A stretch of DNA of 64,000 nucleotides, from contig JHUT02000007.1 in NCBI GenBank assembly GCA_000690595.2, positions 124,402 through 188,401 on the forward strand. The letters are read 5' to 3'. The position numbers and the translations under genes are program-made. Each line of letters starts with the position of its first letter. Position 1 is the stretch's first letter. The notes beneath the pieces were generated by a model. That model was not told the DNA's origin, made no database searches, and saw only the letters and a program-made list of their open reading frames with translations. The DNA is from Natrinema mahii. Lineage in GTDB: Archaea > Halobacteriota > Halobacteria > Halobacteriales > Natrialbaceae. Shown piece by piece: positions 5,435 through 44,924 of the stretch.

Positions 5435-5674
5435 TCAGAGTTCGCCCCGCAGGACGACTTCGTTGTCGACCCGCCGGAGCATGTCCTCGGTGACGACGTA
5501 GTCCTCGTCGTCCTCGCCCTCCCAACCGACCGAGGCGAGGACCTGCTCGGCCAGACTCGGGTCGGGATCGACGTATGCGCTGCCGTTCTCGACGCTCGCG
5601 ACGATTCCCAGTTCCTTTCCTTCGACATCGACGACGGTCTTGCCGACCGCGTCGTCGGTCAGTGGTGCTGTCAC
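5435..5674 (-). CDS. PRC-barrel domain protein, 79 aa
   Basis: Single PRC-barrel-like beta protein. The core reads VGKTVVDVEGKELGIVASV (about residues 10-28), then AYVDPDPSLAEQVLASVGW and EDYVVTEDMLRRVDNEVVL. This pattern, one barrel with a strongly acidic loop GEDDED, is widespread in haloarchaea. PRC barrels occur in photosynthetic reaction centre H subunit and in RimM, where they mediate protein contacts, so a binding or scaffold role is likely. No partner is suggested by the neighbours. It converges on the membrane protein gene with a 23-base gap. Confidence 0.82.
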   Translation of the reverse strand: MTAPLTDDAVGKTVVDVEGKELGIVASVENGSAYVDPDPSLAEQVLASVGWEGEDDEDYVVTEDMLRRVDNEVVLRGEL

Positions 5675-5854
5675 GGCGGGACGCTACGGCGAGGATCGGG
5701 GTAAACGATCGGCCGTCCCGTGCCGGTGGGGGACGGCCGCAGGCGAGGACCGGCCGGAATCCGGTCGGTTTCGGCTGTGTGCCCCCGGACTATTTGACGC
5801 TGGATGCCGACGGTACGCCTGACGGAACGCGGACCGGCCGCACCACACGTACCC

Positions 5855-40158: not shown

Positions 40159-41262
40159 TTATTCCGCACGGGAGAGCAGCCAGAACGCGACGGCCCCGGC
40201 GACGAAGGCGACGCCGACGTTGACGACCGCGCCGACGGCGCCGACTCCCGCGACGAGCGCGAGCGACCGGGGGTCGTCGACTGGATCGAACGCCGCTCGA
40301 GCCAGCTGGGCCCCGACGACGACAAGTAGGACGCCCAGCAGGGCCATCGGGAACGCCGCGAGGACGGTCCCGGCGGCGACCAGCGCGAGCGCGAGGTAGC
40401 CGACGCCGAGCAGGACGTTCGCGCCGCCGGTTCGCGCGCCGAAGGCGTACTTGCCGGCCAGCCCGCCGCTGCCGTGACACATCGGCACGCCGCCCAGCGG
40501 GATCGCCGCGAGACAGGTCACGCCCATGCTCCGCGAGAGCGCATCGGCCGAGACCTCGCGGTCGTAGAGGTCGCCACAGAGCAGGGCGGTCGCGATCGCG
40601 GCGTTGCCGATCGTCATGCCCAACTGGGCGACGGTCCCCTCGAGGGCCGCGACGGACAGCGCCGGCCGCCCAGCAGGGAAGACCGCGAGCGCGGGCGCGG
40701 TCGGCGTCGGAACGCCCGCCGTCGCGACGGCCGCGACCGCACCGAGTCCGAGGACGACCAGCGCGCTCGCCCGAGCGCGCCCGACCAGCGCCAGCAGGCC
40801 GACGACGCCGAGCCCGGCCGCCGCCGCGGGGAGGTTCCCGACCGAGAGGTCGACCGCCGCCTCGAGCAGGAGCAGTGCGACGGCGAACTGGACGCCGCGG
40901 ATGACGGGCTCGCCGACGACCTGCTGGAGCCGGCCGACGAGCCCGAGTCGGCCGACGGCGAGCAAGACGCCGCCGGCGAGCAGCCCGGCCGCGGCCAGTT
41001 CGGCGTAGGAAAGCGCGCCGACGATCGCCAGCCCGACCAGGGCCTTCATCGGCTCGACGGAGATCGGCAGGCCGTAGTGGAGTCCCCAGACGATCTGGAA
41101 GACGCCGAACCCGACCAGCACGTGGGGCAGCGAGACGCTCGTCGTCGCTCCGAGCGCCACCAGCAGCGGGAGGACAGTAACCGAATCCCCTAGCGCACCC
41201 GTGAGTTCGCCCGCGGAGAACTCGAGGTCGCGCTCGGTCCGCGACCCGAAGGAGTACGCCAT
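40159..41262 (-). CDS. MOT1-type molybdate/sulfate transporter
   Basis: 367-residue polytopic membrane protein, about ten helices. Family motifs: ELTGALGDSVTVLPLLVALG near the start, SVEPMKALVGLAIVGALSYA, TIGNAAIATALLCGDLY and PMCHGSGGLAGKYAFGARTG. These fit the MOT1 branch of the SulP-like superfamily, which imports molybdate. A GTAACC/GGTTAC inverted repeat 72-89 bases before the start may be the operator. No molybdopterin gene is adjacent. Confidence 0.87.
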   Translation of the reverse strand: MAYSFGSRTERDLEFSAGELTGALGDSVTVLPLLVALGATTSVSLPHVLVGFGVFQIVWGLHYGLPISVEPMKALVGLAIVGALSYAELAAAGLLAGGVLLAVGRLGLVGRLQQVVGEPVIRGVQFAVALLLLEAAVDLSVGNLPAAAAGLGVVGLLALVGRARASALVVLGLGAVAAVATAGVPTPTAPALAVFPAGRPALSVAALEGTVAQLGMTIGNAAIATALLCGDLYDREVSADALSRSMGVTCLAAIPLGGVPMCHGSGGLAGKYAFGARTGGANVLLGVGYLALALVAAGTVLAAFPMALLGVLLVVVGAQLARAAFDPVDDPRSLALVAGVGAVGAVVNVGVAFVAGAVAFWLLSRAE

Positions 41263-41424: not shown

Positions 41425-43050
41425 TTATCGGGACGTGGTGCCGCCGTCGCCGATCGTCTCCGGCGTCGCGTCGGCCGTCGAGACGGCCTCCGGATCGACG
41501 TCGTCGGCGGTCCGCGGTTCCGGCAGATCGTAGCCGCTCTCGGTGTCGTAGGCCACGAGCTGTGCGTTCAACTCGCCGGCCTGCTCGGTCAGGACGGTCG
41601 CGCTCCGGGCGACGTGGGAGAGCGCCTCCGCCTGGGCCGACGCCCGGCGGGCCGCTCGAGCGGAGGTCGTCGCCGTCGCCGCGCTCGTCTCGGCGGCGTC
41701 CTCGACCAGCACGACGACCTGCTGGGTCGCCGACGCCTGCTGTTGGGTCGCCGCGGAGATCTCCTGGACGCCGTCGTTTGTCTCCTCGGCCAGCCCGGCG
41801 ACCTCCTCGAGCGCGGTCGCGGCGTCCTCGACGTCGGCGACGCTGTCCTCGATTCGGCCGCGGCTGGTCCGGACCTCGTCGGCGGCGGCCATCGCCCGCT
41901 CTTTGAGTCCCTCGAGGCGTTCCTCGACGGTCTGGACCGAGTCGTAGACCTCCTCGGAGAGGGTCTGAATCTCGTCGGCGACCGCGCCGAAGCCCTCGCC
42001 ACCGGCCTCGCCCGAACGAGTCGCCTCGATGTTGGCGTTCAGCGCCAGCATGTTGGTCTGTTCGGCGATCTCGCTGATCGACTCGATCAGTTCGTCGATT
42101 CGCTCGGCTTCGGCCTCGAGGCCCTCGATCTCCTCGAGGGTCCGTTCGGTTTCGGTGTCGATCACGGCCATGCCGGTGATCGCGTCGCCCGCGGCCTCGC
42201 TTCCCTGCCGGCCGACGCGTGCGGTCCGGTCAGCGGTGTCGGCGACCTCGGAGGCGGTCGCGGCGATCTCCTCGACCGTCGTCGAGAAGTTCTCCATCTC
42301 GGCCGTGACGGTTCGTAACTGTTCGTTCTGCTCCCTGTTGTCCGCGACGACCTCGGTCAGCGCCTCGCTCGTGCGTTCGCCCTCGGCCTGCACCGCCTCC
42401 ATGCTCGTCGTGAGTTCGCGACTGTAGGTGACGACCTCGCCCGAAAAGGACTTCAGCGTCCCGAAGGTGTTCTCGATCTCCGCCAGCATCGCGTTGGAGT
42501 TGTCGGCCAGTTCGTCGAGCGATTCGTGGGTGCCCGGGCGCTCGAACCGCCGGGTGAGATCGCCCGCGGCGACCGCCCGGGTCGTCTCCGCGTGGGCCTC
42601 GACCGTCCGCTCGAGTTCGTCCAGCGACCGGTCCGTCCGGTCGCGTTCGGCCAGCTGATTCCGGATCCCCGCCAGCGACGACTCGAGGCCCGCGAACTCG
42701 TCGTCGCGGTCGCCGTCGAAGCGGTCATCGTACTCGCCGGCCTCGAGGCGCGTCACCCGCTCGGTCAGGTCGGCGATCCCCTCGCGCAGTCGATCGCGCT
42801 GGCCCGGCGCGGTTCGGGTGCTCGAGCCGGCGGCGATCCCGGCCGCGGTGGCGCCCGTCGCAACGACGCCGGCGACGCCGGCCCCGAAGACGGCCGCGGT
42901 CGGGCCGCCGAGCGCGACCGCCGCGATGGCGACGACGACCAGTCCGACCACGGCGACCGCAAGGGCGAAACCGACCGGTCGATCCGATTGGATCGCCCCG
43001 GGGAGCGGCGACGAGTCGACCGTCCCGCCCGCCTCGAGGGGGTCAGTCAT
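41425..43050 (-). CDS. methyl-accepting chemotaxis transducer without own ligand domain
   Basis: 541 residues from ATG 43050. Two hydrophobic helices are close together (about residues 26-48 and 51-75) with almost no external loop, so there is no periplasmic-type sensor. Then come HAMP-like regions, ERVTRLEAGEYDDRFDGDRD and ETTRAVAAGDLTRRFERPGT, and the signalling domain with hairpin tip ISEIAEQTNMLALNANIEAT (about 290-340). It should pass a signal to CheA/CheW. Its start overlaps the stop of the H-NOX gene by eight bases, so H-NOX is the likely sensor. Confidence 0.92.
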   Translation of the reverse strand: MTDPLEAGGTVDSSPLPGAIQSDRPVGFALAVAVVGLVVVAIAAVALGGPTAAVFGAGVAGVVATGATAAGIAAGSSTRTAPGQRDRLREGIADLTERVTRLEAGEYDDRFDGDRDDEFAGLESSLAGIRNQLAERDRTDRSLDELERTVEAHAETTRAVAAGDLTRRFERPGTHESLDELADNSNAMLAEIENTFGTLKSFSGEVVTYSRELTTSMEAVQAEGERTSEALTEVVADNREQNEQLRTVTAEMENFSTTVEEIAATASEVADTADRTARVGRQGSEAAGDAITGMAVIDTETERTLEEIEGLEAEAERIDELIESISEIAEQTNMLALNANIEATRSGEAGGEGFGAVADEIQTLSEEVYDSVQTVEERLEGLKERAMAAADEVRTSRGRIEDSVADVEDAATALEEVAGLAEETNDGVQEISAATQQQASATQQVVVLVEDAAETSAATATTSARAARRASAQAEALSHVARSATVLTEQAGELNAQLVAYDTESGYDLPEPRTADDVDPEAVSTADATPETIGDGGTTSR

Positions 43051-43633
43051 TCGCCTCCCCGCTGCGGACGGTGGCCGCACCCGCTTCGGCGGGCGCTCGT
43101 CGCCGAATGTCGAAGACGCAGGCGTCGTCGCCCTCGTGCATGCAGGTCCGTTCCTCGGCGACGAGGTCCTCGTCGAAGCGGTCGGCGACGCCCCGGATCG
43201 CGCCGCGGGCCACGTCACAGAGTTTCCGGTCCGAGTCGTAGGTGATCCGGACTCGGTCCTCGTCGAGCCGCTCCGACCGAATGCGCGGGGTCGTCAGCGT
43301 CGTCATGTCCCGGGTCCGCAGTGAGGTGTGGAACTGCTGGATGTTCGCGATGAGTTCGAGCCCCTCCCAGTCGTCGTCGATGTGGAGGTCGTAGGTCTCG
43401 AGCAACGCGGGGACGACCCACCGCCCGTACTGGGTGAGGATCGTCCGCGGGCTCTGATCGGTCAACTCGCCGGCGGTGCGGGCGATTTCGTAGACGTCGC
43501 CGTCCGGATAGACCGTGACCGGGACGTAGACCTTCTCCTCGATGTCGGCTTCGTCCTGAATCGCCAGCCAGGCGTCCTCGCCGTAGGTGTCGACGACGAA
43601 CGACTGGAGCGTCTGTAGAATTATGCCGTGCAT
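43043..43633 (-). CDS. H-NOX (heme NO/O2-binding) sensor protein
   Basis: 196 residues starting MHGIILQTLQSFVVDTYGED, the classical H-NOX start. The proximal heme ligand is His102 (QQFHTSLR), at the same number as in characterised H-NOX proteins, and the propionate-binding motif YxSxR is Y132, S134, R136 (YDSDRKLC). CMHEGDDACVFDI closes the domain as in bacterial homologues. It should bind heme and sense NO, CO or O2 in the cytoplasm. It is the first gene of an operon with a transducer that lacks its own sensor. Two palindromes lie upstream (43733-43761). Confidence 0.9.
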   Translation of the reverse strand: MHGIILQTLQSFVVDTYGEDAWLAIQDEADIEEKVYVPVTVYPDGDVYEIARTAGELTDQSPRTILTQYGRWVVPALLETYDLHIDDDWEGLELIANIQQFHTSLRTRDMTTLTTPRIRSERLDEDRVRITYDSDRKLCDVARGAIRGVADRFDEDLVAEERTCMHEGDDACVFDIRRRAPAEAGAATVRSGEAND

Positions 43634-43732: not shown

Positions 43733-43761
43733 CCCAAATAGTTGGGTAACACCGGTGTTAC
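43733..43761. promoter_or_regulatory. two adjacent palindromes in the H-NOX / AIR-synthase divergent promoter
   Basis: CCCAA-ATAG-TTGGG (43733-43746) is followed directly by the perfect 16-base palindrome GTAACACCGGTGTTAC (43746-43761). They lie in a relatively AT-rich 256-bp gap between two divergent genes; no small gene is seen in this gap. Likely sites for one or two dimeric regulators, with the H-NOX operon as best target. Confidence 0.6.
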
Positions 43762-43889: not shown

Positions 43890-44924
43890 GTGAGCGACCT
43901 CGGAAAGATCGACCGCGCGTTCTTCGACCGCCACATCGCGCCGAACCTCGGTGCCGATCGCGACGACGTCGCCGTCGGGCCGACCCACGGCGTCGACTTC
44001 GGCGTCCTCGATATCGGCGACCGCGCGCTGGTCACCGCGACCGATCCCCTCTCGATCCTGCCCGCGCTGGGCCTCGAGCGGGCCGCGCGCTTCGCCCTCG
44101 ATCTCGTCCTCGCGGACGTGGCCGTCAGCGGCGTTCCCCCGTCGCATCTCTCGATCTGTTTCACGCTGCCAGAATCGATGACCGACGAGGAGTTCGCGAC
44201 CGTCTGGGAGACCATCCACGCCGAGTGTGCCGACCTCGGCGTCGCCGTCGTGACCGGCCACACGGCGCGCTACGCCGACCCGTCCCATCCGTGGGTCGGC
44301 GCGGCCACCGCGATGGGCGTCGGCGACCACGGTGACATCGTTCGGCCCGACGGGGCCCGTCCCGGCGATCGGCTGCTCCTGACGAACGGCCCCGCCGTCG
44401 AGGCCGTCGGCCTGCTGAGTACGCTCTTCGGCGAGGAAATCGATCGTCCTGCCGACGTCATCGCGGACGCCCAGGACCGCCTCGAGGAGGTCTACGCCGT
44501 CCGGGACGCCCTCACGGCGGCCGCCGCGGGGCCGGTCCGGGCGATGCACGACGTGACCGAGGGCGGCCTCGCCGGCGCGCTGAACGAGATGGCCGACGGC
44601 GCTGGCGTCCGGTTCGCGATCGACCGCGACGCCGTCCCGCTGCGACCCGGCGTCCGCGAGGTCTGTGACGCCCTCGAGATCGACCCCTGGGCGGCGACCA
44701 GCTGCGGCTCGCTCCTGATCGCGGTCGACCCCGACGGCGTCGCCGACGTCCGCGAGGCGCTCGCGGATCGGGGGACGCCGGTCGCCGAGATCGGCCGGGT
44801 CGAGGCGCTCGAGGACGACGGCGGCGAGGTGCTGGTCGACGGGGACCGGCTCGCGCACCCGAACGCCGACCCGTCGTGGGACGCCTACGCGGAGTTGGCC
44901 GCCGCGGCGAGCGACGGCTCGTAA
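43890..44924 (+). CDS. AIR-synthase-family protein (HypE/SelD/ThiL-like)
   Basis: 344 residues from GTG 43890. Superfamily features: VGPTHGVDFGVLDIGDRALV and ATDPLSILPALG (ATP-binding start), LDLVLADVAVSGVPPSHLSI, VVTGHTARYADPSHPWVGAA and AMHDVTEGGLAGALNEMADG. There is no C-terminal Cys as in HypE and no N-terminal Cys/Sec as in SelD, so it is a separate archaeal subgroup with unknown substrate. It converges on the PQQ lipoprotein gene with zero spacing between the stop codons. Confidence 0.82.
   Translation: MSDLGKIDRAFFDRHIAPNLGADRDDVAVGPTHGVDFGVLDIGDRALVTATDPLSILPALGLERAARFALDLVLADVAVSGVPPSHLSICFTLPESMTDEEFATVWETIHAECADLGVAVVTGHTARYADPSHPWVGAATAMGVGDHGDIVRPDGARPGDRLLLTNGPAVEAVGLLSTLFGEEIDRPADVIADAQDRLEEVYAVRDALTAAAAGPVRAMHDVTEGGLAGALNEMADGAGVRFAIDRDAVPLRPGVREVCDALEIDPWAATSCGSLLIAVDPDGVADVREALADRGTPVAEIGRVEALEDDGGEVLVDGDRLAHPNADPSWDAYAELAAAASDGS

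Follow-up and report, generated by a model that had tools for sequence, protein, structure and literature searches.

A conserved pairing of H-NOX and transducer genes points to a candidate two-protein chemoreceptor in Halobacteria

The gene pair

The stretch of DNA analysed here (hereafter the window) comprises 64,000 nucleotides of a Natrinema mahii draft genome (contig JHUT02000007.1, positions 124,402 to 188,401). Two of its genes, both on the minus strand, form the subject of this study. The first (43043..43633; start ATG at 43633, stop codon 43043-43045) encodes a stand-alone H-NOX (HNOB) protein of 196 amino acids, predicted from its translation, its match to PF07700 and a structural model to be a haem-type gas sensor. 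The second (41425..43050; ATG at 43050, stop at 41425) encodes a methyl-accepting transducer of 541 amino acids, recognised as the H-NOX partner from its translation, its match to PF00015, and its position in a clade of such partners (see below). The eight-base overlap of the two genes, noticed in an earlier reading made from the letters alone (the sequence-only reading), is confirmed: the H-NOX stop and the transducer start share the 8 bp ATGACTGA (43043..43050, minus strand). The identical overlap recurs in at least 12 other genomes, and is therefore not a matter of chance.

Upstream of the pair is a gene for an AIR-synthase-like protein (43890-44924), and downstream is one for a MOT1-like molybdate transporter (40159-41262; PF16983); both flanking genes appear alike in genome G408. 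Between the H-NOX gene and its divergently oriented neighbour at 43890 there is a perfect 16-bp palindrome, GTAACACCGGTGTTAC (43746-43761), of a kind that is rare by chance. It has one mismatch in the closest relative (G192) and is absent from most other relatives, and we set it aside as a regulatory element because it is kept only in that closest relative.

The H-NOX protein matches PF07700 over residues 2-159 with 116 bits (E 1.7e-33; cut-off 25.5 bits), and its AlphaFold2 model (pLDDT 84) has as its top PDB match the H-NOX of S. oneidensis (4u9b, TM 0.81). The closest named relatives are those of N. thermotolerans (94%) and N. pallidum (92%), among 13 named relatives from a narrower alignment. 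The full H-NOX signature that had been claimed for the protein holds up, in both residues and coordinates, against the translation, the PF07700 match, and an alignment of 26 His-bearing relatives. It consists of His102, the proximal haem ligand (codon 43328..43330, minus strand), and the haem-propionate motif YxSxR, here Y132-D-S134-D-R136 (43226..43240, minus strand). Together with Pro116, the whole haem-pocket set (His102, Pro116, Tyr132, Ser134, Arg136) is present and is invariant among those 26 sequences. In a profile built from the 26, the His102 column aligns with the haem-ligand region (His103) of S. oneidensis H-NOX structures.

The transducer carries an MCP signalling domain (PF00015, E 2.5e-28, residues 287-452; 41695..42192, minus strand) that includes the hairpin tip, the part that contacts CheA/CheW in known MCPs. 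The signalling region is modelled as two long antiparallel helices (176-345 and 351-500). Nearer the N terminus, hydropathy identifies two hydrophobic helices at residues ~25-46 and ~52-75, which the model also places, with low confidence in this membrane part. They form a membrane hairpin (42826..42978, minus strand) whose loop of ~5 residues leaves no space for an extracellular domain, in agreement with the earlier description of a transducer with two close helices and no extracellular sensor. A weak HAMP-like segment (42673..42777, minus strand) matches PF00672 with E 0.0083, below the curated cut-off.

Conservation of the pair across Halobacteria

PF07700 is present in 85 of the 391 Halobacteria genomes searched; the surroundings of all matches were examined, and 118 domains were analysed. 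These domains split into two clades, one of 44 members that all have the proximal His and one of 74 members of which none does. His102, Pro116, Tyr132, Ser134 and Arg136 occur in 44/44 of the His-bearing clade, in which the YxSxR motif is likewise unchanged throughout. In the survey of gene pairing that the sequence-only reading had proposed, a transducer lies directly downstream on the same strand of 36 of the 44 His-bearing genes, compared with one of the 74 His-less genes (at ~1.5 kb; for two more it is at least 3 kb away). For the other 8 of the 44, no adjacent transducer was found, which counts against the chemoreceptor reading. The association between His and transducer is strong (Fisher p 2e-21 for 36/44 vs 1/74, on a tree with a single His change). 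Because the trait changes only once on the H-NOX tree, it should be read as one old event that has been faithfully kept, rather than as many independent ones. Judged from these genomes, the pairing in Halobacteria is old and conserved, and it spans five families although the flanking genes change.

Natrinema mahii itself has a second H-NOX gene (C4:145262-145738; locus L119:6060-6599), which lacks the proximal His, belongs to the 74-member clade, and occupies a conserved spot beside ribose-phosphate diphosphokinase. In this clade, Tyr stands at the proximal-His position in 40/74, and the three zinc-site Cys residues (see below) are mostly kept. The His-less haloarchaeal H-NOX proteins are possibly haem-free redox proteins.

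The transducers tell a parallel story. Among 125 genomes of the window's family, all 20 homologues of the transducer with at least 65% identity sit at H-NOX loci (the one in G407 was matched by position to the Natronorubrum bangense H-NOX locus, and that of G408 was confirmed by reading its locus). Below this set, identity falls to 44%, and the best of the remaining homologues, those of G328 and then G233, are H-NOX partners too, both without membrane helices. Homologous transducers that are common without an H-NOX, which would have spoken against a split sensor, were thus not what we found. When 61 signalling domains were placed in a quick tree, all 30 that belong to partner transducers grouped in a single clade (SH-aLRT 97), separate from the 31 others, which come from the same and related genomes. 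H-NOX and transducer have diverged together, with parallel distances (r 0.95) to which species history contributes, and dN/dS is 0.14-0.24 for both genes. The earlier proposal of a split sensor, made up of H-NOX and a sensorless transducer, is thus supported, at the level of sequence comparison, by the H-NOX-only homologues and the single partner clade.

It could be argued that these are merely two unrelated neighbours on one transcript, given how often genes overlap in compact genomes. We find this scarcely credible: the pairing extends over five families with changing flanks, the partner transducers are one clade, and every close homologue of the transducer sits with an H-NOX. Such a chance arrangement can be considered largely refuted already.

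The short hairpin without an ectodomain is found in partner transducers of five families (f1, f3, f4, f6 and f7). There are variations in the architecture of the pair. In genus g19 (L068, L070), the partner transducer lacks membrane helices altogether, and its predicted location is the cytosol. At L032, L034 and L059, two tandem H-NOX genes precede the transducer, and the second copies group on a separate branch of the tree; perhaps two sensors act on one transducer at these loci.

Ligand and sensing chemistry

The residues that bear on the choice of ligand (Cys139, Cys164, Cys172, Glu161 and Val141) fall within 43118..43219 on the minus strand, as placed by alignment. Val141 occupies the position of the O2-binding Tyr140, and position 141 is V, L, F, W or I in the His-bearing clade; none of the 118 haloarchaeal domains in the alignment has the distal Tyr that marks O2-binding H-NOX. 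MCP-fused H-NOX proteins of strict anaerobes bind O2 through this Tyr, whereas the H-NOX proteins of facultative anaerobes are without it and show no stable O2 binding (PMC12329717). The clade profile matches the structure of S. oneidensis H-NOX (E 4e-33) far better than that of Tt H-NOX (E 6e-12), and the solved structures nearest to the protein, 4u9b and 4u99, both belong to the NO type. Given the missing distal Tyr and these NO-type neighbours, the ligand or signal is more likely to be NO, or perhaps CO or thiol redox, than O2, and among ligands we favour NO, perhaps CO, as sequence comparison suggests. O2, which the sequence-only reading had listed beside NO and CO, was rejected as the ligand on the same two grounds.

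An O2 sensor for aerotaxis would nevertheless have a precedent, in that the MCP-linked H-NOX already known, that of strict anaerobes, is of the O2 type (PMC12329717). We regard such a role as very improbable here, in view of the distal pocket and of the much closer match to S. oneidensis H-NOX, and because haloarchaeal O2 transducers, HemAT and HtrVIII, are already known (PMC3579733, PMC13401364).

The main rival to gas sensing is a thiol-redox role, in which signalling would go through the zinc site at Cys139/Cys164/Cys172 and haem would be secondary. In S. oneidensis H-NOX, the zinc ligands are Cys139, Cys164, Cys172 and His161, and zinc-site H-NOX proteins (groups 2 and 3) have three Cys plus His/Gln ligands (PMC7108781). 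The trio of Cys does not vary among the 44 His-bearing proteins, and 64/74 of the His-less ones retain it. Thiol/zinc signalling has been reported for two bacterial proteins that are activated by Cys oxidation, the H-NOX of Caulobacter and the haem-free H-NOX of Vibrio cholerae (PMC12329717, PMC7108781). For Caulobacter, it was cysteine oxidation that signalled, and NO binding reportedly did not (PMC12329717), which we counted against an NO-type chemoreceptor. On the other side, strict conservation of the haem ligand and pocket is seen precisely in the clade that is paired with transducers, and the fourth zinc ligand (His/Gln) is replaced by Glu in 41/44 His-bearing proteins, including the one in the window (Glu161). 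We consider a thiol/zinc sensor unlikely, if still the foremost competitor of an NO-type receptor.

A link to denitrification was also considered and dropped, since the presence of NirK (TIGR02376) does not follow the pair: its frequency in paired genomes is not significantly higher (22/33 vs 186/358, p 0.14), and no strong match to NirK was found in the window's genome. This counts against an NO-type reading rather than for it.

Chemotaxis genes and the missing archaellum

The 3.79-Mb draft genome (G000; 99.67% complete) contains two H-NOX genes, five transducers and one CheA. This CheA lies in a complete che operon on contig C2 with two CheW, CheB, CheC, CheD, CheR and a receiver-domain ORF. 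Of the other paired genomes, 32 were searched for CheA and 31 yielded one; the exception, G182, carries a CheA-like ORF within the cluster itself. In three families other than the window's own (f3, f4 and f6), the pair adjoins che genes (CheW, CheY, CheA, CheC/CheX, CheD). For example, an f4 genome (G078) has CheW and CheY there, and the cluster in G276 has a receiver-domain CheY, CheA, CheC/CheX and CheD. The sole transducer and the sole CheA detected in G276 are both within its H-NOX cluster; this CheA has Hpt, ATPase and CheW domains, with a dimerisation domain below the Pfam cut-off.

In three f4 genomes (L050, L058 and L061, at ~5450-5850 on the minus strand) and one f6 genome (L059:260-640), the cluster of H-NOX, transducer and che genes has a truncated-globin gene (PF01152) as its neighbour. 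Truncated globins can detoxify NO. Their location beside the cluster is compatible with an NO signal, and is no proof of it.

In the sequence-only reading, the pair was to give gas-guided swimming. For the organism of the window, this did not survive: no archaellin (PF01917) was found in its genome, and the archaellum operon of a relative is cleanly missing. In that closest relative, G192, an 11-kb block (C1:278000-289050) carries archaellins and genes that match export parts of the archaellum (T2SSF, T2SSE and a KaiC-like ATPase). The genes that flank the block are adjacent in Natrinema mahii at C6:31242-31266 (locus L224), in mid-contig. With both archaellins and operon missing, the organism cannot swim with archaella. 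Across paired genomes more widely, archaellin is present in 14 of 20 and was not found in G000, G005, G276, G182, G127 and G031. Gas-guided swimming is possible in the archaellated relatives.

The missing archaellum raises the question of whether the pair is a decaying remnant, without function in this species, which has no archaellum. We think this distinctly improbable. Both genes are intact, with dN/dS of 0.14-0.21 against relatives, no higher than among the relatives themselves (0.15-0.24), although these values could not yet reveal a very recent loss. In addition, the che genes examined are all intact, and the pair is kept in five other paired genomes without archaellins, including the single-contig genome G005. 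Either the archaellum was lost recently or the array of the window's organism controls something else. A further possibility, which we put forward tentatively and would still call somewhat doubtful, is a pathway of Halobacteria dedicated to H-NOX, with an NO-type H-NOX, its own transducer clade and, in several families, a CheA/CheY/CheC/CheD operon to itself; its output would be something other than, or beyond, swimming. This last element is suggested because the pathway persists without archaellins in several genomes, in one of which (G276) it is the sole chemosensory system found.

Proposed mechanism and significance

In our assessment, the H-NOX and the transducer together probably constitute one bipartite, NO-type chemoreceptor that feeds CheA, and this pair of haloarchaeal genes probably passes a gas signal into the chemotaxis machinery. 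The H-NOX would be a soluble, cytosolic haem sensor whose shape changes upon binding of NO (possibly CO). Docked on the cytosolic portion of the transducer, which its hairpin anchors, the H-NOX would shift the state of the transducer, which would in turn alter the activity of the CheA kinase, in whichever direction, and through it CheY. In archaellated relatives, the expected output would be biased swimming. In Natrinema mahii, which has no archaellum, it may be another CheY-dependent process (e.g., type IV pili), or the pathway may be what remains after a recent archaellum loss.

Accounts of H-NOX signalling exist for bacteria (with histidine kinases, c-di-GMP enzymes and fused MCPs) and for animals (soluble guanylate cyclase). 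The pair would represent a pathway of haloarchaea in which H-NOX has a transducer for its partner. In the open-access literature, we found nothing on H-NOX together with haloarchaea, and the archaeal papers that we read describe no such two-protein system. If the pair is of the NO type, it would also break a stated pattern, according to which MCP-linked H-NOX proteins are O2 sensors of strict anaerobes. Carriers without an archaellum raise a testable question, namely what a chemotaxis array targets when nothing swims, for which the pair-carrying Natrinema and Natronorubrum species with and without archaellins offer a natural comparison.

Comparison with known systems

In the way it would work, the pair resembles CetB/CetA of Campylobacter and Magnetospirillum, in which a small cytosolic cofactor sensor is combined with a separate, membrane-linked transducer, encoded by gene pairs that overlap in Magnetospirillum (PMC12442639). 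However, CetB is a bacterial PAS-FAD redox sensor, whereas the sensor here is an archaeal, haem-type H-NOX: a Pfam search assigned the protein to PF07700 and gave no PAS match. The pair is thus CetBA-like in the way it would work, rather than a member of the CetBA family.

Among H-NOX systems, the MCP-fused proteins of strict anaerobes (e.g., Tt H-NOX; 1u4h) likewise feed a methyl-accepting signalling domain (PMC12329717). They do so as a fused polypeptide with a distal Tyr and stable O2 binding, in contrast to the two proteins without a distal Tyr described here, which would be their split counterpart with a pocket of the NO type. H-NOX/HnoK and the c-di-GMP-enzyme systems (PMC12329717, PMC7108781) share with the haloarchaeal protein a stand-alone H-NOX, the lack of a distal Tyr, and the Cys139/164/172 site, but their partner is a histidine kinase, diguanylate cyclase or phosphodiesterase instead of a chemotaxis transducer.

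Among archaeal systems, HemAT and HtrVIII of Halobacterium are O2-responsive taxis transducers for which haem has been shown or proposed (PMC3579733, PMC13401364); they combine sensor and transducer in a single polypeptide, with a globin or a six-helix sensor, and respond to O2 rather than NO. Signalling from a separate sensor to a halobacterial transducer is established for sensory rhodopsin II/HtrII, BasB/BasT and CosB/CosT, receptor-transducer pairs in which the two components copurify (PMC3579733), and the H-NOX pair would work in a similar manner. Those sensors are membrane rhodopsins or periplasmic-type binding proteins, whereas here a cytosolic H-NOX is matched with a transducer that has no ectodomain. 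Taken with the comparative genomic evidence, the pair is best described as a putative two-protein chemoreceptor, lineage-wide and conserved, of a general kind that is known and with a combination of sensor and partner that is new.
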